From a virus, in the IMG/VR virus record IMGVR_UViG_3300018476_000014, positions 1 through 64,000 of that record: a stretch of DNA of 64,000 nt; one strand, given 5' to 3'. The notes below the pieces were generated by a model. It was not told where the DNA came from, did no database searches, and saw nothing but the letters and a program-made list of their open reading frames with translations. Shown piece by piece: positions 3,375-27,879 of this stretch. Every line of letters starts with the position of its first letter. The first letter of the stretch is position 1. The position numbers and the translations under genes were made by a program.

Positions 3375-3998
3375 TCACTCCAGGAACTGGTTGAACCACG
3401 CCCACAGGGCGGCGTCCTTCTCCACTGTATGCGCACCCCATTTTAAGAGGGTGTCGTAGCCGAAATAGGTCATGCCGCTCGCCGGCGTCTCGACCATGTC
3501 CTTGAGCGGCTCGCTGCGCACGCCATAACTCTTGTGCAACACTTTGGCGGTCATCTTGGTCCATTGCGGGTCCGGTTCTCCCGTCGCGGTGTCATGCACC
3601 TGATGAACGCCTAGCTCAGCGCTGTAATCGATCAGCAGGTTCCCCTGAGAGAGCGCCACCAGTGCTGGGAACGAGCACGCCGACAGACAGTAACCATCGA
3701 CGTAGACCGTCGCCTCGTTGTAGTGCACCCACCCAGCAAGACGGACACCTTCGTCGCCGTCGCCGCCCCATGAATCAAGCTCCAGAGCGACGATCTTGTA
3801 GCCGTCCTTGATTGCTTTCTTGCGGGCTTTCTTGACCTGCTCCAGATCGCCCGGCACGATTTCCCCGCTCAAGCGGATCGTCACCAGCTTCACGTCGGCG
3901 TCTGTCGGCCAGTACGCCCTTTCGGCTGTTACTTCGGCTGTCCATGACGACGTAGCCCACAATGTCCCCAGCAGGGACGTCAGAATTCTGTTCCGCAC
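3375..3998 (-). CDS. Exported ClpP-like serine protease/peptidase-fold protein
   Basis: 207 residues. I chose the GTG at 3998: it follows GGAGG with 8-9 bases spacing and gives a clean signal peptide (basic start, hydrophobic core ILTSLLGTLWATSSWTA, cleavage after about residue 21). The mature part looks like the ClpP/crotonase-fold periplasmic family of COG3904: IRLSGEIVPGD (41-51), ALELDSWGGDGDEG (71-84, oxyanion Gly-Gly), YCLSAC with candidate nucleophile Ser106, and LGVHQ with candidate His132. These proteins are thought to be peptidases or relatives outside the cytoplasmic membrane. Its role in a phage is unknown; envelope remodelling, lysis timing or exclusion are guesses. The neighbouring reading frame (3775-4305) overlaps its first 224 bases. 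Confidence 0.7.
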   Translation of the reverse strand: MRNRILTSLLGTLWATSSWTAEVTAERAYWPTDADVKLVTIRLSGEIVPGDLEQVKKARKKAIKDGYKIVALELDSWGGDGDEGVRLAGWVHYNEATVYVDGYCLSACSFPALVALSQGNLLIDYSAELGVHQVHDTATGEPDPQWTKMTAKVLHKSYGVRSEPLKDMVETPASGMTYFGYDTLLKWGAHTVEKDAALWAWFNQFLE

Positions 3999-4305
3999 CG
4001 TGATTTTCCTCCATGCGCTTCTCAAGCTCTTTGAGAAGCGGACCCATCATTTTCCCTCTCCACTCGCCGCCGCGTCTCCAGATCATCGCGATGGCGTTTC
4101 TCAGATGCTGTTCGGTCAGCGTGTTGATAGGCAGCGCTCTTCCATCCTCAGTCAGCCAGATCGGCTCGCTGACGATGTCTTGAACCGTCCACAAGGTGCG
4201 GCAGTCCTCGCAGAAGAACTCCTGCGTCTTGTACCAGTAGATGAGCGGCGCATGCTTGCAGCTCGGGCACGGGCCGCTGAACAGGCAGTTGGGATCAGTG
4301 TTCAT
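3775..4305 (-). CDS. Zinc-ribbon-like protein with long 3' overlap (176 aa)
   Basis: ATG at 4305 overlaps the previous stop (ATGA). Residues 1-100 look genuine: CPSC and CEDC form a probable zinc ribbon, followed by a helical region (LTEQHLRNAIAMIWRRGGEW, KELEKRMEE). The last 75 residues are Arg/Gly-rich and lie antiphase over the start of the ClpP-like gene, so they look like untested read-through sequence. Either the overlap is real, or the gene was once shorter, or a frameshift links it to the next gene. Function unknown. Confidence 0.55.
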   Translation of the reverse strand: MNTDPNCLFSGPCPSCKHAPLIYWYKTQEFFCEDCRTLWTVQDIVSEPIWLTEDGRALPINTLTEQHLRNAIAMIWRRGGEWRGKMMGPLLKELEKRMEENHGAEQNSDVPAGDIVGYVVMDSRSNSRKGVLADRRRREAGDDPLERGNRAGRSGAGQESPQESNQGRLQDRRSGA

Positions 4306-11914: not shown

Positions 11915-13276
11915 TCACACCAGCTCCACCTCGATCAGCTCGCCCCACGGCACCTCGGACCCTTGAGCAATCGAGCACCAGATCACCGGGTAGTCCGGCT
12001 CCTGATCGGGGAATGACCCGTAGGTATCGGTGAGGTAGACCATCATGTCAGGGATGATCTCGTTCTCCTCGACCCACTCGAACACCGGACAGAAGTCGGT
12101 GCCGCCACCACCCGGCGCGCCACCCAGTTCGTTGATCTCGGCGCGCAGTCCCTCTAGGTCATCGATCTCTTCGAGGTCATCGACGCGCTGAACGTCTGCA
12201 TCGCACCACACGACGATCAGCCGTTGTGGATTGAGTTCGTCTACGATGCCCGCCATCTCGGAGAAGAAGCGTTGCTGCACGTCAGGGTTCACGCATGACC
12301 CGGACGTGTCGTAACCAATCACCACAGTGCCAGCGCCCATGTGCCCCTGCCGGGCGAACACGATGGGATCGTACGGGCTAGGTCTTGAGATGTGCCGCTT
12401 GTCAGGCTGCGACCAGTCAAGCATCGGGTCACCACCATGCCGGAGCATGGTTGACTTGAGCTTGTCCTGCCATGACACCTTCGGGTCGAGGATCTCGCCA
12501 AGCAGCGCCCGCAGAGCAGCGGGAAGGTTCCCCTTGCCGGATGCTGCCGCGGACTCCGCCGCTGCCACCACGGACTGGCTCTGTGCCCCTGAGTCGGCAT
12601 CCTTCTGCGCCTTCTCGGCAGGATCAAGGTGATGGTCGAAGCCGCCATGGTCGGGAACACCGCCCCCTGGTTGGGGATTTCCCTGCCCCTGCTGCCCCGG
12701 CCTGCCGCGTCCACCACTTCCACCACGTTGTTGATAGATCTTGGCGTAGATCTCGATGCAGCTCTCCATTCCCTCGCGGGAGTAGGCAGGCTCGTACAAG
12801 CCCGGACACCCAGCCGGCATGGCACCGATCTTCGACGCAATCAGCATCGCGTTGATGCGGTAGTCCTGCGCTTTGTTCATGGTCTCATGGTCGTAGGGCA
12901 GTGGCCCGCATGAGCAGAGCACAGTGCCCGTCTGGCGCCATTTCACGCTCATCACCAGATCGCAGAAGATGTAGTGGCCCACCTCGTGGGCGAGCACGAA
13001 CGCCATCTCGGGGATCTTCATCGAGTAGCGCTTGATCGCGTTGACGTTGATGAAGATCGAGTGGGCATCGGTCGCGGCGACCGGGAAGCCCATCGAGTCG
13101 TCGCAGTACTTGACTTGCATCTCGCTATACAGGATGTGCGCAAAGAAGGGTGCGCGGAACACCAGATACGCCATCGCGTCGCGGACGAACTTCTCATCGG
13201 CGGCGTTGGGCTTGATGGTGGGAATCGGAACGCGCTGTGGCTTGCTCGTCATGATGTTGAATGGAGCGTCCATCAT
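11915..13276 (-). CDS. VWA-like metallopeptidase (DUF2201-type), MoxR partner
   Basis: 453 residues. The N-terminal zincin-like domain has AHEVGHYIFCD with HExxH at 97-101. A Gly/Gln-rich linker (185-210) leads to a C-terminal von Willebrand A domain with an intact MIDAS: DTSGS (323-327), Thr393 in GGGGTDF and Asp417 in YLTD. This is the DUF2201 arrangement, known beside MoxR-type ATPases in bacteria and phages. The pair is thought to act as a metal-dependent chaperone-like remodeller. Start ATG at 13276 follows GAGGTGACT. The ATPase lies just upstream (with a 59-residue protein between) and a DUF3150-like gene before that. Targets unknown. Confidence 0.8.
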   Translation of the reverse strand: MMDAPFNIMTSKPQRVPIPTIKPNAADEKFVRDAMAYLVFRAPFFAHILYSEMQVKYCDDSMGFPVAATDAHSIFINVNAIKRYSMKIPEMAFVLAHEVGHYIFCDLVMSVKWRQTGTVLCSCGPLPYDHETMNKAQDYRINAMLIASKIGAMPAGCPGLYEPAYSREGMESCIEIYAKIYQQRGGSGGRGRPGQQGQGNPQPGGGVPDHGGFDHHLDPAEKAQKDADSGAQSQSVVAAAESAAASGKGNLPAALRALLGEILDPKVSWQDKLKSTMLRHGGDPMLDWSQPDKRHISRPSPYDPIVFARQGHMGAGTVVIGYDTSGSCVNPDVQQRFFSEMAGIVDELNPQRLIVVWCDADVQRVDDLEEIDDLEGLRAEINELGGAPGGGGTDFCPVFEWVEENEIIPDMMVYLTDTYGSFPDQEPDYPVIWCSIAQGSEVPWGELIEVELV

Positions 13277-13288
13277 AGTCACCTCGTG

Positions 13289-13305
13289 GTTGAATGGGGT
13301 TTAAC
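13289..13305. promoter_or_regulatory. GTTNAAC-family palindrome, site 5
   Basis: gttgaatggggtttaac, one mismatch. It contains the stop codon of the 59-residue gene and lies 13 bases from the ribosome site of the VWA gene. Confidence 0.6.
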
Positions 13306-13480
13306 CGGGCAGCTCCATGCTGCCCGGCTTGCTGATAGGCTGATTGGCGAGGACGATCAGCAGCCTGTCGAAACGAGCGATCCACTTGGCTAGCTCGGTC
13401 TGTAGGCTGGCGATCTCCTTTTGCTGCGCATCGACAGTGCTGCGCAGCCGTAGCATCTCGTCGTGCTCGCTTCGTTTCAC
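13301..13480 (-). CDS. Small coiled-coil protein in the MoxR module (59 aa)
   Basis: GTG at 13480 overlaps the ATPase stop (GTGA). A heptad helix spans residues 5-45 (EMLRLRSTVDAQQKEIASLQ, ELAKWIARFDRLL). It sits between the ATPase and VWA genes and so may be part of that complex, by inference. An in-frame upstream extension reaching 13711 overlaps the ATPase and is rejected. Confidence 0.55.
   Translation of the reverse strand: MKRSEHDEMLRLRSTVDAQQKEIASLQTELAKWIARFDRLLIVLANQPISKPGSMELPG
13305..13327 (-). terminator. Hairpin next to palindrome site 5
   Basis: CCGGGCAGC-TCCAT-GCTGCCCGG, perfect 9-bp arms, over the last codons of the 59-residue gene. No U-tract. With the adjacent palindrome it repeats the hairpin-plus-palindrome layout seen at 14613-14652. 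Confidence 0.5.
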
Positions 13481-14589
13481 GAGTTCACCGCAGCGATCAC
13501 CTGCTGGTTGGCGACGGCCCAGTCGCCGAACTCGCGGGTAGATATGAGCTTCGGCGTCTTCTGTGCTGCGGCACGGTAGAAGGCGACACCGAAGTCGGAC
13601 GGCAACCGGTTGATGTAGCGGATCACTGCCTTGCAGTTCTCGACGGTGGCGCGGTGCGCCAGATCGAACACAAGGAACATCTGCTGATCTGCCTCGGTCG
13701 GCACCCGACACTTGTCGGGGTCGGCGAGGATCTGCGCCAAGCTCGGGAGCTGGTCCTTCAGCTTGGCGAACGCGATGTACTTGTGCGCGCTGCCCTCGCC
13801 GATGGTGCCACCAAGGTTCGCCCTCAGAAGATCATCATCGAGATGTATACCCATCACCTCGGCTGCCTTGATCAGGTTGTCTGCCGATGCCAATGACCTA
13901 GGCGTGAGCCACGGCCCCTGCTTCTCGGGGATCTTGTTGGAGAACACATCACCCTGGTTCCGCTCGGCAAAGGCGATGCTCATGGGCGTGATGTCGTTGT
14001 CGTTCGCCCACACCACCCAGCCATTGAAGTCGGCCACGACTTCCATCTGGTTGAGACGGTTGATGACGAAGTCGAAGTCTTTCGAGACGCCAGACCGGTC
14101 GGTCGGGCGGTTCGACAGGAGCAGCACATCGGTGTGCTCGGGGAACTTGTGCTCGCCATTCCTGCGCTGGCGGATGATGCCGGCAAGTGCCCGCTTCACA
14201 TCGCTCTGCGCCTGCCCATACTCTTCGACCACGAACATGCCACGCTTGAACGTGGATGCCGGTCGGCCGGTGAACTTGCAGCGCATGAAGAACGGGTAGG
14301 TGTAGTGCCCGGACTTGATGACGTGCTCGTTGCCCTCGAAGTCGGTGACGATCTCGTCACCCGGCAGGAGGAACCCGATCACGTCGGACAGGTTGGCAGT
14401 CGCCGCGTTCAGCTCGAAGTAGCCATAGCCGTGGTCGTCGGCATACTTCTTGTGCATCATCGCGGCATACCACTCGGCAAGCTCGGACTTACCGATACCC
14501 GGCGCACCCATGAGCTTGAGCGGCACCTGTGCGGTGAAGCTGAGCAGCATCGAACGCTTTGCGTCCTGAATTGAAATCGCTTGTGTCAT
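13477..14589 (-). CDS. MoxR-type AAA+ ATPase
   Basis: 370 residues. Walker A GAPGIGKS (28-35), Walker B MFVVEE (118-123), sensor-1 region LLLSNRPTD (156-164) and later arginine residues make an active ATPase likely. Order and spacing fit the MoxR branch of AAA+. ATG at 14589 follows GAGGTGACTAAC. MoxR proteins work with VWA-domain partners, and the partner is the next large gene (11915-13276). Upstream lies a DUF3150-like gene, separated by a palindrome and a hairpin, so the module may be separately controlled. In a phage the role could be remodelling of host or virion complexes; nothing here shows which. Confidence 0.8.
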   Translation of the reverse strand: MTQAISIQDAKRSMLLSFTAQVPLKLMGAPGIGKSELAEWYAAMMHKKYADDHGYGYFELNAATANLSDVIGFLLPGDEIVTDFEGNEHVIKSGHYTYPFFMRCKFTGRPASTFKRGMFVVEEYGQAQSDVKRALAGIIRQRRNGEHKFPEHTDVLLLSNRPTDRSGVSKDFDFVINRLNQMEVVADFNGWVVWANDNDITPMSIAFAERNQGDVFSNKIPEKQGPWLTPRSLASADNLIKAAEVMGIHLDDDLLRANLGGTIGEGSAHKYIAFAKLKDQLPSLAQILADPDKCRVPTEADQQMFLVFDLAHRATVENCKAVIRYINRLPSDFGVAFYRAAAQKTPKLISTREFGDWAVANQQVIAAVNS

Positions 14590-14612
14590 GTTAGTCACCT
14601 CATCGTGTGTTG

Positions 14613-18276: not shown

Positions 18277-18519
18277 GTCCGGTAATGTCAGTTCTGTTTA
18301 ATGTCCGAAACAGGCGTAAGCACTTGATGCGCAATGATAATCCGGCAAACTGTCCAACTGTCCGGAATTTTCCCCGCACAGAGGACTAGCTTTTTGGGGG
18401 TCGCGCTACGTGTCCGCACGCGTCCGCACGTACGCGATCATGTACGTGTCTATAATAATATATGTATGACACTACAGACATATATATACCATGCCGTGTG
18501 CAACCTGAGCCTCTCACGT

Positions 18520-18562
18520 GGGTATCCATCCCCCTACGTAGTAGGGGGATGGAGTTATACCC
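18520..18562. repeat. Large hairpin
   Basis: Arms CCATCCCCCTAC (18526-18537) and its exact complement (18541-18552) with a 3-nt loop, extended by flanking GGGTAT and ATACCC. No T-tract on either side, so not an ordinary terminator. Confidence 0.6.
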
Positions 18563-18684
18563 TGTTCAACCATGGTATTTCGCGAAATGTCATGGCCGCA
18601 CATGTGCAGGTAGGTATTGTTGCCGGCACTAAGCATTTTAGCGTCCGATACACCTCCTTGCTGCTACCGCTGGTACGCTGCTGA

Positions 18685-18779
18685 TAGGCGCACTCGCGCC
18701 TAAGTAGCCGTCGGGTTGTTGTTGATAGGCTCTGCCCCTTGTGGTTGCAGAGCCTAGGGTGGCGCATTCGCGCGCCACC
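18685..18779. repeat. Three consecutive hairpins after the 18791-19576 gene
   Basis: TAGGCGC-ACTC-GCGCCTA (18685-18702), TAGGCTCTGC-N11-GCAGAGCCTA (18726-18756) and GGTGGCGC-ATTCGC-GCGCCACC (18758-18779), all perfect. On the minus strand the first two are each followed by TATCA within the GCCTATCARC 10-mer. No U-tracts. May be a 3' structured region, tandem terminators or a small structured RNA. Confidence 0.55.
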
Positions 18780-18790
18780 TATGGTTGTGG

Positions 18791-19576
18791 TTAGCCTTCG
18801 GCCTTGATCAACGTGGCCGCCCACGTGAACTCGGTTCCCTCGCATACCTTGTCCATCGTGCATGGCAGGTTCGCTGCCTTGCGGTTCATCAGCGTAGCCA
18901 GCAACCCGTAGATCTGGACCAACTCCAACTCATGCGGGCGGGCTTCAACCGCCTTGGTGAGCGCATCGAAGGCGGCCTTAAGATCGTCGCGATCCTTCGG
19001 TTCCTTGCGCAACGCCTTGTCCAGCATTTCATCCGTGATCACGGGAAACGCCGCCACGTTGATCGCTTTCGCGCACGCATCGGCGACCATGCGGTTCACC
19101 TTGACGTAGGCGTTGTACGTGGATTTCTGCGCCCATTGATCCGCCGGGATGGAATGCTCGCGCATGAACCGAACGCGCTCGTATAGCTCCGCGCCAAGCT
19201 CGCATGGTCCTTTGCGGGCGAAAGACTTGAACGTGGAAATTGAGCTTTTCAACTCCTCATCGCTCGCGCCAAGTGGCTTGCCACCCAACTCAGGGTTCCG
19301 CGACACCCAGTCGTTGTGCTTGTTCACATGGTGCTTGTACACCAAGCCACCATCATCGATTTTCGCGCCACCATCGCGGACAAGCTCTTGGAACCCAAAG
19401 GCGAGCTTGGTCACGGCGGACTGCCCGGCAGCTACTGCCTCGCCGGTTTCCATAGCCAGCGCCCAAAGCGCGGCAACGGCAGGCGATTGGTTATGGCCGC
19501 CTACGGCAACCGGGTTCAAGAGTGCATCGGCCTTGCTCTCAGCGGCATCGGCCAGCGCTGCGTTGGTATTCGTCAT
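18791..19576 (-). CDS. Unknown protein (261 aa), first gene of the leftward block
   Basis: ATG at 19576 follows CAACACACGAAAGAGAGTAACGACG. Mostly helical. An Ala-rich N-terminus is followed by VYKHHVNKHNDWVSRNPELG, then charged helices (YVKVNRMVADACAKAINVAA, DRDDLKAAFDALTKAVE). No family recognised. It is the promoter-proximal gene of the leftward block, under palindrome site 14 and a degenerate promoter module, so probably among the first expressed. Confidence 0.7.
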   Translation of the reverse strand: MTNTNAALADAAESKADALLNPVAVGGHNQSPAVAALWALAMETGEAVAAGQSAVTKLAFGFQELVRDGGAKIDDGGLVYKHHVNKHNDWVSRNPELGGKPLGASDEELKSSISTFKSFARKGPCELGAELYERVRFMREHSIPADQWAQKSTYNAYVKVNRMVADACAKAINVAAFPVITDEMLDKALRKEPKDRDDLKAAFDALTKAVEARPHELELVQIYGLLATLMNRKAANLPCTMDKVCEGTEFTWAATLIKAEG

Positions 19577-19597
19577 CGTCGTTACTCTCTTTCGTGT

Positions 19598-19614
19598 GTT
19601 GAACCCGGTTTAAC
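19598..19614. promoter_or_regulatory. GTTNAAC-family palindrome, site 14
   Basis: gttgaacccggtttaac, both halves perfect, in the leader of the first leftward gene. Confidence 0.75.
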
Positions 19615-19660
19615 CGGGCGATTGACCGTAGTTATCCACGGTTAACTAGGGGAACCGCGA

Positions 19661-19685
19661 ATAATGGCAAGTAAACCGGGTACAC
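19661..19685 (-). promoter_or_regulatory. Degenerate leftward promoter module
   Basis: ATAATGGCAA followed by gtaaaccgggtacac, a weakened version of the modules at 15691 and 18251, 85 bases before the 19576 start. Confidence 0.4.
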
Positions 19686-19788
19686 CCACCCACCCGGTAC
19701 CCGCCCAACGCCCCCACCCCCTCCCCCCTTCTTTTAGGTCTTCGCCTCCTAGCTAGGTTGAAATACTGACGTAACACTTGACGTTACT

Positions 19789-19815
19789 TTCTCTGTCACC
19801 TCAAGTGACAGAGAA
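19789..19815. promoter_or_regulatory. 27-bp palindrome, second copy (parS-like candidate)
   Basis: TTCTCTGTCAC, CTCAA, GTGACAGAGAA. Identical arms to the element inside the parB-like gene; ends 13 bases upstream of the late -35 box. Confidence 0.6.
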
Positions 19816-19828
19816 CGCTCCAAGCACC

Positions 19829-19857
19829 TTGCCGACCATAATGTAACACATTATATT
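19829..19857 (+). promoter_or_regulatory. Sigma-70-like promoter for the late block
   Basis: TTGCCG, 17-bp spacer, TATATT. The spacer contains GTAACAC (19843-19849). Transcription would begin near 19864, about 20 bases before the ATG of the ribbon-helix-helix gene. Confidence 0.6.
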
Positions 19858-19882
19858 CCCGCTCAAAGAAGGAGTGTCCCGA

Positions 19883-20167
19883 ATGCCCATTGACAGATCA
19901 ACCACTTACAAGAGCGAGCTGAGGCCGCTCCCGATGCGAATCTCCCAGCTCCAGTATGAGCGGCTCCAGGCGGCAAGGCAGCGTGACGGCCTGTCTATCC
20001 AGGAACACGCGCGGCGCGGTCTGGATCTCTACCTGGCGAAACTGGAGCGCGAGTTTGCCAAGCAGGACGAAGTCCCGGCCAACGCCCCGCCCACCCCCAC
20101 TCTTGCCAATGCGACCATTGGCGGACTACGGTCGCGGCGTTCCATGTCCAGCCTGCGAATGAAGTGA
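19883..20167 (+). CDS. Ribbon-helix-helix-like DNA-binding protein
   Basis: 94 residues. ATG at 19883 is favoured over an earlier GTG because AAGGAG lies eight bases upstream. Residues 17-52 (PLPMRISQLQYERLQAARQR, then GLSIQEHARRGLDLYL) fit the ribbon-helix-helix pattern: a short strand, helix, turn with Ser, second helix. Such proteins bind palindromic operators as dimers. First gene of the rightward transcript, beside the divergent control region, so a natural candidate for regulating the switch or autoregulating. A small-terminase role is less likely but not excluded. Confidence 0.65.
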   Translation: MPIDRSTTYKSELRPLPMRISQLQYERLQAARQRDGLSIQEHARRGLDLYLAKLEREFAKQDEVPANAPPTPTLANATIGGLRSRRSMSSLRMK

Positions 20168-20176
20168 GGGGTATTC

Positions 20177-20800
20177 ATGCCGCGCAAATCATCGGTTCGT
20201 GTGCAGATGGCGGACGAGGAGACCGAGCTGCCGAGCTTCGAGGAGATCCTTGCGCAGACCCCACCACGCCAGCCCGACCCGGACGATCCCGACAATGGCG
20301 ATGAGAACGGAAACGGCCCCATCGATCCCCGCGAAGACGACGACCCGCCTCCCCCGGAGGAGCCGGACGTGGAGCCTGAGCCGGACATTCCCGACGAAGG
20401 CGACCCGGATGAGATCCCTTTTGGGGACGAAAGTGGTTTACCTGCAGACCCCCCTCACATCGCTGCCATCACCGAGATTTTTCCCCCCACCCACAACGAA
20501 AAGCACTACGAGGCGAGGATCTCCATTGTCGACGCGTTCCAGTACCAGGGAAACCTCAAGGACGCCCCCGAATGGATCGACCGCAACTGGGCAGCCTATG
20601 CCGATAACTACGATCCCGTTCGTGAACTCGAGCCGGGGCCAGCTCTTCGTGTACCGACTTACCGCGGTGATACCGTGCTGTGCCGAAAAGGCGACTACGT
20701 GGCTCAGCAGGAAGTCCGCCTGACCAGCAATCTGCCGGGCGAGGTGAAGATCGAGGTATGGGAGCAGCAGCAGTTCGAGAGGCTGTTCATCCCGGTCTGA
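20177..20800 (+). CDS. Unknown late protein sharing a domain with 15788-16339
   Basis: 207 residues. The N-terminal half is extremely acidic and Pro-rich (DDPDNGDENGNG, EEPDVEPEPDIPDEGDPDEI), probably disordered. The C-terminal half holds the shared domain (APEWIDRNWAAYAD, GPALRVPTYRGD, RKGDYV) and a strand-rich end (GEVKIEVWEQQQFERLF). It lies directly before terL, the usual place for a small terminase or head-associated protein, but shows no HTH motif. Confidence 0.65.
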   Translation: MPRKSSVRVQMADEETELPSFEEILAQTPPRQPDPDDPDNGDENGNGPIDPREDDDPPPPEEPDVEPEPDIPDEGDPDEIPFGDESGLPADPPHIAAITEIFPPTHNEKHYEARISIVDAFQYQGNLKDAPEWIDRNWAAYADNYDPVRELEPGPALRVPTYRGDTVLCRKGDYVAQQEVRLTSNLPGEVKIEVWEQQQFERLFIPV

Positions 20801-20801
20801 C

Positions 20802-22253
20802 ATGGCTACGATCGATTATGTAGCCCCACCTACAGTCGGCCGGTTCATGGACTCTGAAGCGTTCGCCCGCTTCATCATCGGACCGGTCGGCAGTGGCAAG
20901 ACCACCGGCGCCATCTTCGAGATCCTCAAACGCGCAGTCCAGCAGGCTCCCGGGCCTGATGGGATACGCCGCACCCGCTTCGCCATCGTCCGGCAGACGC
21001 TGCTGCAGCTGAAGATGACGGTGCTGCTGGATATCCTCTCCTGGCTGCGGCCGATCTGCGAGTACAAGGTTTCCGAGCAGCTGCTTAAAATTCGGTTCGG
21101 CGATGTGCTCTCCGAGTGGTACCTGATCCCGCTCGAGGACGAGGACGACCAGAAGCGGTTGTTGTCCATGCAGCTCACCGGCGCCTGGATGTCGGAAGCG
21201 ATCGAGATCGATGTCGGCCTGGTCGACGCGATCGCCGGCCGCTGCGGCAGGTTCCCGACTGCGGCGGCCGGTGGCTGCACCTGGTTCGGGCTGATCGGCG
21301 ACACCAACGCCCCCATCGAGGGTTCCGACTGGTGGCGGCTGTTCGAGGACGACAAGCCGCCGGACTGGCAGGTGTTCAAGCAGCCGTCCGGTCTCGACCC
21401 CATGGCCGAGAACCTGGAATGGCTGCTGCAGACGCCGACCACCATGCAGTTCCCGGTCACCGACCAGCGAAGACGGTCGCAGGGCAGGACGTACTACGAG
21501 CGCCTGTCGAGGGGTAAGAACCCCGACTGGATCAAGCGCTACGTGCATGCCGAATATGGGGAGGACCCGACCGGGACAGCCGTGTTCCGTGGTTCGTTCA
21601 AGCGATCGTTCCACGTGAAACGAAAGCTCTCGCCAGTGGTTGGGTACCCCATACTCATCGGGCAGGACTTTGGGAGGAGTCCGTGCTCGGTGATCTGCCA
21701 ACCCGATGCCTTTGGGCGTCTCCTCGTGCTGGAGGAAGTGATCGCCGAAGACATCGGGTTGGAGCTGCACGTCACCAAGGCGCTGAAGCCGGTGCTCTAC
21801 CAGGACCGCTTTGCCGGGATGAACATGGCTGCAGTAGGCGACCCCTCTGGCGTAGCGAAAGGAAATTTCCTTGAGGAGAACTCATTCGATGTCCTGCTCC
21901 GACTCGGCATCCCCGCCTTCCCGGCGTCGACCAACAACATCGACCCGCGTCTTGCCGCAGTGGAAACCCTACTCCTCCAACAGCGCGATGGAGGTCCAGC
22001 AATCGTCATCGATGAGGACCGCTGTCCCACTCTTATCCGAGCGCTTAACGGTGCCTATAGATTTGGGAAGACCAAAGCAGGAGTGACCAAGCCGCTGCCG
22101 GAAAAACTTCATCCCTGGTCCGACGTCGCAGACGCCCTCCAGTATGTCTGCCTGGCGGTCAACTCCGGGCTCTCGCAGTTCATCGCTAAGCGGATTCGTC
22201 CTCGTCCGGCAAGACGCCCGCCCCCACCAGTCTCGGCGAAGGGCTGGACGTAG
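20802..22253 (+). CDS. terL: Terminase large subunit
   Basis: 483 residues. Walker A GPVGSGKT (27-34) near the N-terminus, and an ATPase domain with LTGAWMSEAIEID in the region of the coupling motifs. The C-terminal nuclease domain begins near IGQDFGRSP (about 285-293), giving the first catalytic Asp of the RNase H-like fold. It packages genome DNA into the prohead through the portal. The last 68 bases overlap the 3' end of an antisense gene. Order terL, portal, scaffold, coat is standard for tailed phages. Confidence 0.92.
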   Translation: MATIDYVAPPTVGRFMDSEAFARFIIGPVGSGKTTGAIFEILKRAVQQAPGPDGIRRTRFAIVRQTLLQLKMTVLLDILSWLRPICEYKVSEQLLKIRFGDVLSEWYLIPLEDEDDQKRLLSMQLTGAWMSEAIEIDVGLVDAIAGRCGRFPTAAAGGCTWFGLIGDTNAPIEGSDWWRLFEDDKPPDWQVFKQPSGLDPMAENLEWLLQTPTTMQFPVTDQRRRSQGRTYYERLSRGKNPDWIKRYVHAEYGEDPTGTAVFRGSFKRSFHVKRKLSPVVGYPILIGQDFGRSPCSVICQPDAFGRLLVLEEVIAEDIGLELHVTKALKPVLYQDRFAGMNMAAVGDPSGVAKGNFLEENSFDVLLRLGIPAFPASTNNIDPRLAAVETLLLQQRDGGPAIVIDEDRCPTLIRALNGAYRFGKTKAGVTKPLPEKLHPWSDVADALQYVCLAVNSGLSQFIAKRIRPRPARRPPPPVSAKGWT

Positions 22254-22689
22254 CCTCGATGGTCAGCGGAGGCATCTCGGCCGACGTCGAGATGTTGATC
22301 GTCACGCCCGAGCCACCGCTGCCGAGCACGCTCTTGTCGCCGTCCAGCTCGCCCAGCCGGGCCAGGAAGCGCCCCGCCTCGACGCGCTGCGCCAGCGGGA
22401 TGTCGTCTCGTCCGAGATCGCGGATATACACCGAGAGCTGCGACTCGAGCCCTGTGGCGGCCTTCATCTTCACCCGTTCGCGGGTGTTCGACGCGGCCTG
22501 CCACTCGGCGGAAAGTGTGGCCACCATGTCGATGAACTTGGGGTTTTCCTGTATTCGCAGCCACTCTTCGTTGGTCAGCTGGTGGAGCTGCAGCAACTGT
22601 GGAATTTCCAGCACATCCATGGCGATTTCGCGCGCCAGCGTCGCAAGATCGACAGCAAAGATGAGGTTAACGTCAGACTGGTCTGTCAT
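22186..22689 (-). CDS. Antisense-oriented conserved phage protein (167 aa), possible small terminase
   Basis: Minus-strand gene embedded in the rightward late block. Codon use and sequence look real: NLIFAVDLATLAREIAMDV, NEEWLRIQENPKFIDMV, ERVKMKAATGLESQLSVYIR, PLAQRVEAGRFLARLGELDG. I recognise this as a family of phage proteins near terminase and portal genes with small-terminase-like features, though I cannot name it surely. The opposing frame over the same bases is Arg/Ser-rich and non-protein-like. The 3' end overlaps the terL 3' end by 68 bases (convergent). The ribosome site is weak (AGGAA, far upstream). How it is transcribed against the late promoter is unclear. Confidence 0.7.
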   Translation of the reverse strand: MTDQSDVNLIFAVDLATLAREIAMDVLEIPQLLQLHQLTNEEWLRIQENPKFIDMVATLSAEWQAASNTRERVKMKAATGLESQLSVYIRDLGRDDIPLAQRVEAGRFLARLGELDGDKSVLGSGGSGVTINISTSAEMPPLTIEATSSPSPRLVGAGVLPDEDESA

Positions 22690-22729
22690 GGCTGATTGGT
22701 GTATTCCTGAAAATTCATGGGGGTAGGGG

Positions 22730-24862
22730 ATGCCTGCTGCAGTTCTGCGTATCGTATCGCCTGACGATCTCTCGCAGCAAGAGACGGCGGCCGATGCTCA
22801 ACGCGTCGCTGCCGAAGATGCACTCAGCCGTGATGCGCAGCTCAACAACTCCCTTCTGGCTTTCATCGACAATGAATTCTCGACATTCGTCCGCCATCGT
22901 GACGGTGCCAGCGGCTGGTCCGACCGACTTGTGGCAGCGATGCGGGTCTTCAACGGCCAGTACGACACCACAAAACTTGCCGAGATCAGACGCTTTGGCG
23001 GGTCTGACATCTATGCCCGGCTCATCGCGACTAAGTGTCGGGGAGCGACGAGTCTTCTGCGTGACGTCTACCTTAACGCCGAGAAACCCTGGGGCCTGAA
23101 GCCGACGCCGAACCCGACGCTGCCCGACGACATCATGGGCGACGTGGCCAACCTGGTGCAGGTCGAAGTCGGCACCATGACCCGGCTCGGCGAGCCGCCC
23201 GATGAGAACGCCGTCCGCGATCGTGTTCAGTCGCTCACCCTGTCAGCCAAGCGCGCCGCCATCAAGCGCGCCAGAATCGAAGCTGAGGCTGCCTTCACCA
23301 AGGTCGATGACATCCTGGTCGAGGGCGGGTTCTACGAGGCCATGGCCTCGTTCCTGGTCGATCTGCCACTGTTCCCGTTTGCCTGCATCAAGGGACCGAT
23401 CGTGCGGATCGTGCCGCGTGTCACCTGGACGCAGGGACGGGCGGTGGTCGAGAACAAGCCGAAAATGTTCTGGAACCGCATTTCGCCGTTCGATGTGTGG
23501 TGGACCCCGGGCGTCTCCAACGTGGCGGACGCCGCGGTGATCGAGCGCACCCGGGTGACCCGTCAGGACCTGAACCAGCTTCTCAACCTGCCTGGATACA
23601 ACACAGCAGCGATCCGCGAGGTGCTGCAATGGTATGGCCAGTCTGGTTACGTCGAAGCGAACGCCTCGACATCCGATACTCCTCGAGCGGTCATGGAGTC
23701 GCGCGAAGACCCGCGCATGAACCAGTCCGGCATGATGGACATGCTGGAATACCATGGCTACGTGCAGGGCAGGATCTTGCTCGACTATGGATTCACGGCG
23801 CAGCAAGTCCCCGAACCGTTGCAGGACTACTTCGTCGACGTGTTCAAGATCGGTCGCTACATCATCAAGGTGCAGCTTTCGCCCTCACTTCGAAAGAGGC
23901 CGCCATACTACGTCACGTCCTTCGAGAAGGTGCCGGGGACAGTCGTCGGCAACGCCTTGCCGGATATCCTAAGTGATATCCAGGACGCCACGAATGCGGC
24001 ACTACGGTCGCTGATCAACAACATGAGCATTGCCAGCGGCCCCCAGGTCGTTGTCAATGACGACCGCATTGCTGAAAACGAGAACGGCGACGAGCTTTAT
24101 CCGTGGAAGCGGTGGCACGTTCAGACAGATCCGCTTGGCGCCAACAACGGCCAGGCCCCGATCAGCTTCTTCCAACCCAACAGCAACGCCCAGGAACTCC
24201 TTGTCGTCTACGAAAAGTTCACTCAGATCGCTGACGAACTCAGCGCTATACCTCGATATATTACTGGTTCTGACCGCATGGGTGGCGCTGGCCGGACTGC
24301 TAGTGGTCTTGCAATGCTCATGGGTAATTCCGCAAAAATACTCCAGACAGTGGCAGCCAACATCGACGGCGACGTTATTGAGCCTGCCGTAAACGAACTC
24401 TACGACATGATCATGCTGACCGATCAGACCGGCTTGCTCAGGGGCGACGAGTCGATCGAGGTGCTCGGCGTCAACGTCGCCATGCAGCGCGAGACACAGC
24501 GCCAGCGCCAGCTGGAATTCCTCCAAATTACCGCGAATCCGATCGATTCGCAGATCATGGGTATCCGTGGCCGCGCCAATGTGCTGAGACCGGTCGCCGA
24601 CGGTATCGGCCTCGATGGCGAGAACGTCGTTCCTCCGGACGAGGAAATCGCAGCACAGATGGCCGGACCCGGCGGACCGCAGGGTGGGCCGCCTGGGGCT
24701 CCTCCAGGAGCACCGGCGGGACCCCCTGGAGGGGGAGGGGCACCACCCACCGCACCGGGCGGTGCCCCCACCGGCCCGCAAGGACCGCAGACCAACGTGG
24801 TCGGCAAGACGCCCGGCGCCGGTCCCGGCACCGCAGTGAACCCAACGCAAGGCCCAGGCTAG
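22730..24862 (+). CDS. Portal protein
   Basis: 710 residues, the usual size for large podovirus-type portals. Recognisable features are the N-terminal region with DNEFSTFVRHRDGASGW, DPRMNQSGMMDMLEYHGYV, and the portal-like helix region SDIQDATNAALRSLINNM followed by GSDRMGGAGRTASGLAMLMG. The C-terminal 60 residues are Gly/Pro/Ala-rich repeats (GGPPGAPPGAPAGPPG) and probably disordered. It forms the dodecameric ring at one vertex through which DNA is packaged and ejected. Confidence 0.9.
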   Translation: MPAAVLRIVSPDDLSQQETAADAQRVAAEDALSRDAQLNNSLLAFIDNEFSTFVRHRDGASGWSDRLVAAMRVFNGQYDTTKLAEIRRFGGSDIYARLIATKCRGATSLLRDVYLNAEKPWGLKPTPNPTLPDDIMGDVANLVQVEVGTMTRLGEPPDENAVRDRVQSLTLSAKRAAIKRARIEAEAAFTKVDDILVEGGFYEAMASFLVDLPLFPFACIKGPIVRIVPRVTWTQGRAVVENKPKMFWNRISPFDVWWTPGVSNVADAAVIERTRVTRQDLNQLLNLPGYNTAAIREVLQWYGQSGYVEANASTSDTPRAVMESREDPRMNQSGMMDMLEYHGYVQGRILLDYGFTAQQVPEPLQDYFVDVFKIGRYIIKVQLSPSLRKRPPYYVTSFEKVPGTVVGNALPDILSDIQDATNAALRSLINNMSIASGPQVVVNDDRIAENENGDELYPWKRWHVQTDPLGANNGQAPISFFQPNSNAQELLVVYEKFTQIADELSAIPRYITGSDRMGGAGRTASGLAMLMGNSAKILQTVAANIDGDVIEPAVNELYDMIMLTDQTGLLRGDESIEVLGVNVAMQRETQRQRQLEFLQITANPIDSQIMGIRGRANVLRPVADGIGLDGENVVPPDEEIAAQMAGPGGPQGGPPGAPPGAPAGPPGGGGAPPTAPGGAPTGPQGPQTNVVGKTPGAGPGTAVNPTQGPG

Positions 24863-24872
24863 GAGACCCGCC

Positions 24873-25094
24873 ATGGCACCGACAAAGAAATCCACTTCCA
24901 AGCCGGCCGGCAAATTCAAGATCGAGGCCGGGCCGAGCGGCAAGATGCAGAGCTTCAAGGGCGTCGGCGACCAGCAGCCGGGCGTGTCCGCGGTGACTGC
25001 CAAGAACGCCGGCAAGAAATGGTCCGGTCCCTCGACGGGCGGCTCCGGCAAGATGCAGAAGTTCACGCCGGTCAAAGCCGTCAAGAAGGCCTGA
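24873..25094 (+). CDS. Small basic Lys/Gly-rich protein (73 aa)
   Basis: Lys, Gly and Ser-rich with an internal repeat: GPSGKMQSFKGV and TGGSGKMQKFTPV. Immediately after the portal gene and before two similar basic proteins. Perhaps a head-associated or DNA-contacting protein; no family recognised. Confidence 0.65.
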   Translation: MAPTKKSTSKPAGKFKIEAGPSGKMQSFKGVGDQQPGVSAVTAKNAGKKWSGPSTGGSGKMQKFTPVKAVKKA

Positions 25095-25098
25095 CGAC

Positions 25099-25431
25099 GT
25101 GGCCCGCGCTCCGCGTGCCAAAGTTTCCAAGACGTCCGGCCAGGGTATCTCGCGGCTCAGCTACCAGAAGGGCCGGGCGCTCGGAAACAAGAACACGGCG
25201 ACGCCCGGCGATTTGACGCCGGCCAAGTTCAGTGCTGGCGACATGAAGGGTCCAGGCTCGACCGGCGGCGGGCGCAGCTACGGCAAGGGTGAGGGTGGTG
25301 CCGGCGACATCAACATCTCCTACGGCGGCACGATCCGCCCGTCCGACATCGAGGACGTCAAGGCGCTCGGCAAGATGGACATCCCGAAGGGCAAGGCGCT
25401 CGGGCCGACCAAGACGAAGCAGCTGAAATGA
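25099..25431 (+). CDS. Basic Gly-rich protein (110 aa, GTG start)
   Basis: GTG at 25099, four bases after the previous stop. Lys/Gly-rich, low complexity, with KALGKMDIPKGKALG near the end. Coupled by ATGA to the next gene. Unknown; same style as its neighbours. Confidence 0.6.
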   Translation: MARAPRAKVSKTSGQGISRLSYQKGRALGNKNTATPGDLTPAKFSAGDMKGPGSTGGGRSYGKGEGGAGDINISYGGTIRPSDIEDVKALGKMDIPKGKALGPTKTKQLK

Positions 25432-25595
25432 AGCCCGGCAAGAAGACCCGTCCACTGCCGACGCGCGGCGGGTTGAACGACCTGGCCAAGACCCAACACA
25501 CGATCAGCGACTACTCGAAAGCCTCGCCGATGGGGTCGACGGAGAAGACCCCGACGGTGATGCAAGCCTTGCGCAATCCGCGTAAGGGGAGGTAA
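25428..25595 (+). CDS. Small basic protein (55 aa)
   Basis: Starts in an ATGA overlap and ends in a TAATG overlap with the next gene. Sequence MKPGKKTRPLPTRGGLNDLA, with a basic end RNPRKGR. Third of three consecutive small basic proteins between portal and scaffold. Unknown function. Confidence 0.6.
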   Translation: MKPGKKTRPLPTRGGLNDLAKTQHTISDYSKASPMGSTEKTPTVMQALRNPRKGR

Positions 25596-25852
25596 TGCCC
25601 GATACAGCCAAGCTCGTGCAGATGGCGATGCTGGTACGGGCGCAGGCTCCGGAAGCCTGGGAGGGGTTCGTTTTGGCGTTTCGGGAGTACGCGGCGGCGA
25701 CCGCTGCAGAGATGGTGCGTTGTCCGCCGGACCAGCTGGCGAAAGCGCAGGGTATGGCGCAGATCGCGCACGAGCTAGCCCAGACGCTGATGAACGCGCC
25801 GAGGATACACGAGCGAGCGCGAGAGGCAGGACGTCATGGCCGACAACCCTAA
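25595..25852 (+). CDS. Unknown helical protein before the scaffold (85 aa)
   Basis: Helical and Ala-rich (LVRAQAPEAWEGFVLAFREY, MAQIAHELAQTLMNAP). Overlaps the scaffold gene by 17 bases. Position suggests a head-assembly accessory. Confidence 0.65.
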   Translation: MPDTAKLVQMAMLVRAQAPEAWEGFVLAFREYAAATAAEMVRCPPDQLAKAQGMAQIAHELAQTLMNAPRIHERAREAGRHGRQP

Positions 25853-26858
25853 CCCGCAGGAAGCCAGCCAGCTTCCCGAACAGCTGCGGCGTCAGATCGC
25901 CGAGGCCGACCAGATCCGTGCCGACATCGCGGCACCCACGGAAGAGACTCCGGCTGCTCCGACCGAGACGCCGGCGTCTCCCAGTCCTCAGCCGACTGAC
26001 CACCCTCAATCGGCTGAGGACGACCAGACCTGGGAGCAGCGGTACAAGTCGCTGCACGGGCGGTTCGAGAACACCCAGCGCTCGAACCAGCAGATGTCCG
26101 AGCGCATGACGCAGATGGAGCAGCTCATCGCGTCCATGCAGGCGCGCGGCCATGAGCCGGAACGTCCGGATGCCGCGGTGCCGATAACCAAGCCGAAGCT
26201 GGTCACCGACCAGGAGGCGTCGGACTACGGCGAGGAGATGCTGACCGTCGTCGGCAAACGTGCCCGCGAGGAATTCTTTCCTGAGTTCGAGCAACTCGCA
26301 GCCCGCCTGAAGCGTATCGAGAGCCGTGTCGACGGGGCCGCGCAGGTCATCGACAACTCGCAGAAGATGAACGTCTACCAGACGCTGCAACAGCAGATCC
26401 CCGACTGGAAGACGATCAACAAGTCGGACGAGTTCAAGGCATGGCTCGGCCGGCCCGACGATTTTTCGGGCCGCCGACGCATGGATATGCTGAAAGAGGC
26501 GTTCGATAGACACGAGCCAGGACGCGTGCTAGCGTTCTTTCGGGGATTTTTGACTGAGGCTACCGGCACCCCGCCAAACAATTCGAGCCCAGGGAATTCA
26601 GCGCCCCCTCTTGCCAACGGCCAAACCGGTCAAGGCAACGGCAGCGGGAAACCCTCCCTCGAAGACTTTGCGGCACCCGGTAGAGCCAGGTCGGCGCCGC
26701 AGGAATTGCCGCCCGATAAGCCCATCTACACGTCCGCCTTCATCACGAAGTTCATGGCAGACAAGCGTACGGGCAAATATCGAGGCCGCGAGGCCGACGC
26801 AGATGCAATCGAGCGCGACATCTACCAGGCACAGCATGAGGGGCGGATCTCACCGTAA
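25836..26858 (+). CDS. Putative scaffolding protein
   Basis: 340 residues directly before the coat gene, the canonical place. Acidic Pro/Thr/Glu-rich start, then a coiled coil (residues 65-105, RYKSLHGRFENTQRSNQQMS and MTQMEQLIAS), a helical middle, and a charged C-terminal region (TSAFITKFMADKRTGKYRGR) that would contact coat protein. No protease domain is visible, so processing is not predicted. Confidence 0.75.
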   Translation: MADNPNPQEASQLPEQLRRQIAEADQIRADIAAPTEETPAAPTETPASPSPQPTDHPQSAEDDQTWEQRYKSLHGRFENTQRSNQQMSERMTQMEQLIASMQARGHEPERPDAAVPITKPKLVTDQEASDYGEEMLTVVGKRAREEFFPEFEQLAARLKRIESRVDGAAQVIDNSQKMNVYQTLQQQIPDWKTINKSDEFKAWLGRPDDFSGRRRMDMLKEAFDRHEPGRVLAFFRGFLTEATGTPPNNSSPGNSAPPLANGQTGQGNGSGKPSLEDFAAPGRARSAPQELPPDKPIYTSAFITKFMADKRTGKYRGREADADAIERDIYQAQHEGRISP

Positions 26859-26883
26859 TCGCTAAGAGCGAACGAGGACCGCC

Positions 26884-27879
26884 ATGGCATATCCTGTAGC
26901 AGGTGCGGGCACGACCCCACCCATCTATCCGACTGGCTCAGCAACACCCAATCCGGCTTACTCCGGTACCTTCATCCCCGTCCTGTGGTCGACCAAGCTT
27001 ATAGAGAAATTCTATGCATCGACCGTACTGGCGGCGATTTCCAACACCGACTACGAAGGCGAAATCAAGAACAAGGGCGACAAGGTCGAGATCCGGACCA
27101 AGCCCACGATCACCATCAAGGATTACAGAGCTGACGGCTTGCTCGAGATCGAGCGCCCGTCCTCGAACATTGTCGAGCTACCCATCGACAAGGGCAAATA
27201 CTTCAACCTCATCCTCGATGACGTCATGGAGATCCAGTCGGACCTCAACATGATGAACCTGTGGAGCGACGACGCTGCACAGCAGTTCAAGATCGTTGTC
27301 GACCGTGAAGTCCTGCTCGGCCTGCTCGGCCAGGCGGACACCAAGAACAAGGGCCTCACCGCGGGCCTGATCTCCAACAACATCAATCTCGGTGTTACCG
27401 GCACGCCGATCCAGGTTGTCGCTCGCAACCCTGCTGGCACCGCCGGCAAGGTCGAGATCATTGACATCCTGGTTCGCCTCGGGCAGGCGCTCGATGAGCA
27501 GAACATCCCCGAGACTGGACGTTGGGTCGTGCTTCCGGCCTGGATCTCATCGCAGATCAAGATGTCGGAGCTGCGGGACGCGTCGCTCACCGGTGACTCG
27601 GTGTCGATTCTGCGCAACGGGCGGCTGGGGATGGTTGATCGTTTCACCATCTACGTCAGCAATCTCCTGCCGTCCGGCGTCCCCGCCGGCCTCGCCGCTG
27701 GCGAGTGGGTGATCTACGCAGGTACCCAGCACGGGCTGACGTTTGCGTCGCAGATCAACAAGGTCGAGACACTGCGTTCCGAGATGACGTTCGGCACCCT
27801 GCTGCGTGGCCTTCAGGTCTACGGCTACAAGGTGCTCGACGGCAAAGCGCTTGCCCAGGCAATCGTCACTCCGGGTTGA
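26884..27879 (+). CDS. Major capsid (coat) protein, P22-like
   Basis: 331 residues. Recognisable signature of P22-type coat proteins: YSGTFIPVLWSTKLIEKFYA, TVLAAISNTDYEGEIKNKGD, VEIRTKPTITIKDY, and PIDKGKYFNLILDDV. Forms the icosahedral shell. Its stop codon lies inside palindrome site 15 and is followed by a strong hairpin, so late transcription is probably reduced after this highly needed gene. Confidence 0.9.
   Translation: MAYPVAGAGTTPPIYPTGSATPNPAYSGTFIPVLWSTKLIEKFYASTVLAAISNTDYEGEIKNKGDKVEIRTKPTITIKDYRADGLLEIERPSSNIVELPIDKGKYFNLILDDVMEIQSDLNMMNLWSDDAAQQFKIVVDREVLLGLLGQADTKNKGLTAGLISNNINLGVTGTPIQVVARNPAGTAGKVEIIDILVRLGQALDEQNIPETGRWVVLPAWISSQIKMSELRDASLTGDSVSILRNGRLGMVDRFTIYVSNLLPSGVPAGLAAGEWVIYAGTQHGLTFASQINKVETLRSEMTFGTLLRGLQVYGYKVLDGKALAQAIVTPG

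Follow-up and report, generated by a model that had tools for sequence, protein, structure and literature searches.

How does a gene come to lie on the strand opposite to its late-operon neighbors, between the genes for the large terminase subunit and the portal, and what does it encode? These questions arise from the virus record IMGVR_UViG_3300018476_000014 (67.6 kb as a whole), of which we analysed positions 1 to 64,000, a stretch of 64,000 nt that we call the window. On its plus strand, terL (20802–22253, 483 amino acids) matches PHROG 2 at 3e-20 and encodes a large terminase subunit that shares 52% identity with the protein annotated as TerL in Rhizobium phage RHph_TM27A. Downstream on the same strand, a gene for a portal or head-tail adaptor (22730–24862, 710 amino acids) matches PHROG 332 at 1.9e-61 and the Pfam model SU10_portal at 3e-10. 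The minus strand between them holds an ATG-initiated frame of 167 amino acids (22186–22689), the small gene, which overlaps terL tail to tail by 68 nt (22186–22253) and is separated from the portal start codon by a divergent gap of 40 nt (22690–22729).

In this DNA, frame length alone is poor evidence of coding, because GC-rich sequence yields longer spurious antisense frames. One such frame of 327 amino acids runs antisense inside terL and many other long ones are scattered through the window, so the small gene might be read as one more of them. Against this reading, its product matches PHROG 36773, a family of unknown function, with an E value of 1.3e-22 over residues 15–150. Of 55 sequences in our alignment of the family, 48 match this PHROG, and the homologues in the three nearest contigs (L003, L004 and L005) are 68%, 71% and 59% identical to it. 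Comparison with L003 over the first 140 codons gives a dN of ~0.29 and a dS of ~0.95, indicating that purifying selection acts on the small gene. Two plus-strand frames (183 and 155 amino acids) are also open across this region of the window; because stops interrupt the opposite-strand frames at the small gene in all three nearest relatives, we regard both as by-products. A preliminary description had noted a conserved-looking gene here, with a good frame on the minus strand and poor ones in the sense direction. The conserved gene and the coding character of the minus-strand frame are borne out, whereas the sense frames are in fact open in the window. As judged from these comparisons, the 167-residue frame is a real conserved gene; the chance that it is spurious is negligible, and that reading can be considered refuted. 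In L004, where the homologue lies at about 3506–4011 on the minus strand, an upstream in-frame ATG fits the starts of the other homologues.

In the textbook gene order, the small terminase subunit (TerS) is encoded just upstream of terL, and two plus-strand genes occupy that position in the window, one of 97 amino acids (19874–20167) and one of 207 amino acids (20177–20800). By position, either of them could be the real TerS gene. Their distribution, however, argues otherwise. A TerL scan of viral contigs returned 80 loci, and the homology search that the preliminary description had proposed, carried out with an iterated profile, showed that 82 of 84 loci have a homologue of the small gene close to terL, a count that includes the window, with the window’s own DNA entered twice and one contig present twice. 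By contrast, the 97- and 207-residue genes were detected solely in the window’s nearest relatives among the 48 loci listed; in the commonest gene layout both are found on the far side of terL, and neither has a terminase match. The small gene, unlike these two, is by these counts the constant partner of TerL in the lineage, and it is very unlikely that either upstream gene encodes TerS, a reading largely refuted by this distribution. By eye, the 97-residue protein resembles a ribbon-helix-helix protein, without a convincing family match.

In other tailed phages, TerS forms a ring, recognizes the packaging site and brings in TerL. TerS is also the best reading of the small gene, because its linkage to terL is constant, Terminase_2 and Terminase_4 find no match elsewhere in the 67.6-kb record, and its predicted structure returns weak matches to TerS folds. 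For the window protein itself, AlphaFold predicts helices over residues 15–112, mostly with pLDDT above 90; in the model of a relative (L012), an additional β-hairpin spans residues 127–142, which is absent from the window protein’s model. The C-terminal tail of the small protein is variable. When compared to the PDB with Foldseek, one model ranked Sf6 TerS first (E 0.81) and the other ranked phBC6A51 first (E 0.99), which we take to be a TerS-like phage protein; neither match is strong, with E values of 0.8 to 1 and probabilities of 0.15 to 0.25. A viral library returned several further weak matches named terminase small subunit. The predicted helical body and the L012 hairpin are fitting for the TerS plan of a helix-turn-helix domain, a helical core, a β stalk and a flexible C-terminal moiety (PMC9611059). 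Pfam and NCBIfam contain no terminase model that matches the window protein, which is unsurprising because sequence conservation among TerS proteins is low (PMC9611059). Likewise, no named PHROG matches it, and profile comparison with the annotated TerS proteins of BcepC6B, Pmp11, Y3 and MEP301 detected no similarity. By the same kind of comparison, Pseudomonas phage Rollin has a homologue of the small gene (1e-12) upstream of its terL. Matches to TAL effectors and designed repeat proteins in a PDB sequence search were judged to be spurious helical-repeat matches.

A helical, DNA-binding-like body encoded at a divergent junction with the portal gene, and matching no terminase family model, could also belong to a DNA-binding regulator of late transcription that adjoins terL and takes no part in packaging. 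Yet the pairing with terL is near-constant in every layout, the best fold matches are phage structures of the small-terminase type, the hairpin in L012 and the variable tail speak against a regulator, and no other TerS candidate was found. We therefore consider a regulator unlikely, and it is very likely, as far as function alone is concerned, that the small gene encodes TerS. The suggestion of a possible small terminase subunit on the opposite strand, overlapping the end of terL, is thus supported by the terL pairing and the predicted fold, and we treat the protein as a candidate TerS. It resembles the TerS proteins of Sf6 (gp1), P22 (gp3), PaP3 and HK97 in its 15–21 kDa size class, its position beside terL, its predicted helical N-terminal body, the β-hairpin of its relative and its variable C-terminal tail. 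Unlike these proteins, it lacks a Pfam or NCBIfam terminase match and is encoded on the strand opposite to terL, and in the window’s group its tail is encoded antisense to terL. Searches of an open-access library of papers brought up no earlier description of such a TerS on the opposite strand.

Gene order in the relatives, which had been put forward as a further check, places the small gene beside terL in three layouts. In layout A (38 of 65 scored tree rows), the portal gene is opposed in direction by a tandem of the small gene and terL. Layout B (6 of 65) has the small gene, terL and the portal gene in the same direction. In the convergent layout C (21 of 65, the window included), terL and the portal gene run the same way with the small gene reversed between them. 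Layout A is also that of Rhizobium phage RHph_TM27A, in which EVB29_018, annotated as a hypothetical protein, is homologous to the window protein (29% identity over residues 18–113) and precedes the TerL gene EVB29_019. As in the window, the small gene of this phage sits between portal and terL and diverges from the portal gene; unlike in the window, where terL faces the small gene, the two form a tandem on one strand. Among the nearest relatives, all three layouts share one frame, in which the 97- and 207-residue genes are followed by the terminase pair and the portal gene, and beyond it by two small genes, a 340-residue gene and the major capsid gene. The terminase pair thus changes orientation inside fixed flanking genes.

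The TerL tree demands a minimum of seven layout changes. A single clade for all convergent loci is rejected (AU test, p 5.6e-106), and layout C therefore arose at least twice; within the window’s own clade, a single origin of this layout cannot be rejected (p 0.47). Because layout A is the commonest and occupies most of the deep branches, we infer that it is probably ancestral, and it follows that the window’s small gene would have kept its old direction while terL turned. Inversion is the mechanism that we infer for the layout changes; separate gene replacement or translocation could yield the same layouts, and no 9-nt short repeats were found at the ends of terL as inversion sites.

These observations can be drawn together into one explanation, in which the small gene encodes TerS and came to oppose terL through flips of the terminase genes within a fixed frame; we regard this explanation as likely. 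By analogy with other phages, the product of 22186–22689 would assemble into a ring, recognize the packaging start through its N-terminal DNA-binding domain and recruit TerL. The genes for TerS and TerL would constitute a two-gene unit between the 207-residue gene, itself preceded by the 97-residue gene, and the portal gene. Ancestrally, both terminase genes would have run against the late operon. The layout of the window, with terL forward and terS reversed, would follow from an inversion of terL alone, whereas inversion of the whole pair would give the tandem forward layout. In the former case, the new junction would have let terS read into the 3’ end of terL, giving TerS a C-terminal tail encoded antisense to terL.

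The overlap itself is consistent with such an origin. The last 21 residues of the small protein (TSSPSPRLVGAGVLPDEDESA) are the antisense reading of the conserved TerL C-terminus, which ends in WT in all layouts; because it is conserved across them, this C-terminus is older than the overlap. The TerS tail is overprinted solely in the window’s convergent group. In layout-A relatives, the small protein tends to end in an IEG...IPEE-like tail, and in L005 such a stretch is still present, followed by the antisense extension, as would fit the loss of an old stop at the new junction. Since this antisense frame of terL is likewise open in some relatives without an overlap, which do not use it (L014 and L015), an open antisense frame alone is no proof of a selected tail. 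The overlap seems to be a side effect of the inversion of terL.

Could the overlap instead control terL by antisense, as the preliminary description had suggested? It might act as a switch that couples TerS and TerL levels through base-pairing or transcriptional interference, as in noncontiguous operons, and this would be compatible with a TerS function. The overlap is retained, at 68–74 nt and in the same register, in the window and in L003, L004 and L005. Moreover, no terminator-like site lies between terL and the portal gene and the 40-nt gap has no σ70-consensus promoter, so late transcription may cross terS. Noncontiguous operons are known in bacteria (PMC7154746), and the window likewise has an opposite-strand gene within a possible single transcription unit; in contrast to noncontiguous operons and excludons, the overlap is not conserved outside the window’s group. 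Most relatives have the small gene in tandem with terL, where the overlap is absent, and it is equally absent from the other, distant convergent clade, in which 30 to about 950 nt separate terL from the small gene. That the antisense terL frame is open in some loci without overlap also counts against a switch. Since only the window’s close group has the overlap, control of terL by antisense, although possible, lacks support, and a switch of this kind appears rather improbable. The C-terminal tail of P22 TerS binds TerL. The broader idea that, with flips recurring and the TerS tail lying antisense within terL, the two subunits share a constraint on their DNA and are coupled in expression by opposed transcription strikes us as doubtful. 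In the distant convergent clade (L028–L048), the interval between terL and the small gene contains short open frames.

Promoter-like sequences differ between the two convergent groups. In 19400–25200 of the window, we found a single promoter-like site (19829–19857, plus strand), upstream of the 97-residue gene, against 0.9 expected from shuffles. In L028–L048, a TTGAC-N16-18-TA site points towards the portal gene in all 18 distinct gaps between the small gene and the portal gene (from the distant convergent clade and its one layout-A member), where shuffles expect 0.2, an approximate expectation because the pattern was chosen after viewing the sequences. Five of the 18 gaps have such a site towards the small gene as well. 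This suggests that ordinary divergent promoters operate in the distant convergent clade, whereas the window’s 40-nt gap has no TTGAC-N16-18-TA site. Rather, it carries the heptamer GGTGTAT at 22698–22704, which the corresponding gaps of L003, L004, L012 and L014–L016 also contain, as do others in altered form. An Rfam scan of 18500–27000 gave no match.

The small gene is thus an ordinary gene in an unusual, repeatedly rearranged layout, and the surprise lies in the repeated flips of packaging genes within a fixed frame and in the use of the antisense strand of terL for a TerS tail. With the proposed assignment, PHROG 36773, so far without a function, gains a probable one, and a TerS is proposed for the phages related to RHph_TM27A. 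As packaging genes switch strand within a fixed gene frame, orientation and textbook order are unreliable guides for finding TerS. The three layouts, with both terminase genes against the late operon, both with it, or only terL turned, provide a natural series in which the expression of opposed essential genes can be tested. Elsewhere in the window, minus-strand genes of the left arm (11915–14598) match PHROG 1314, annotated as an HNH endonuclease (2.8e-69), and PHROG 1297, an ATPase (7.6e-57).
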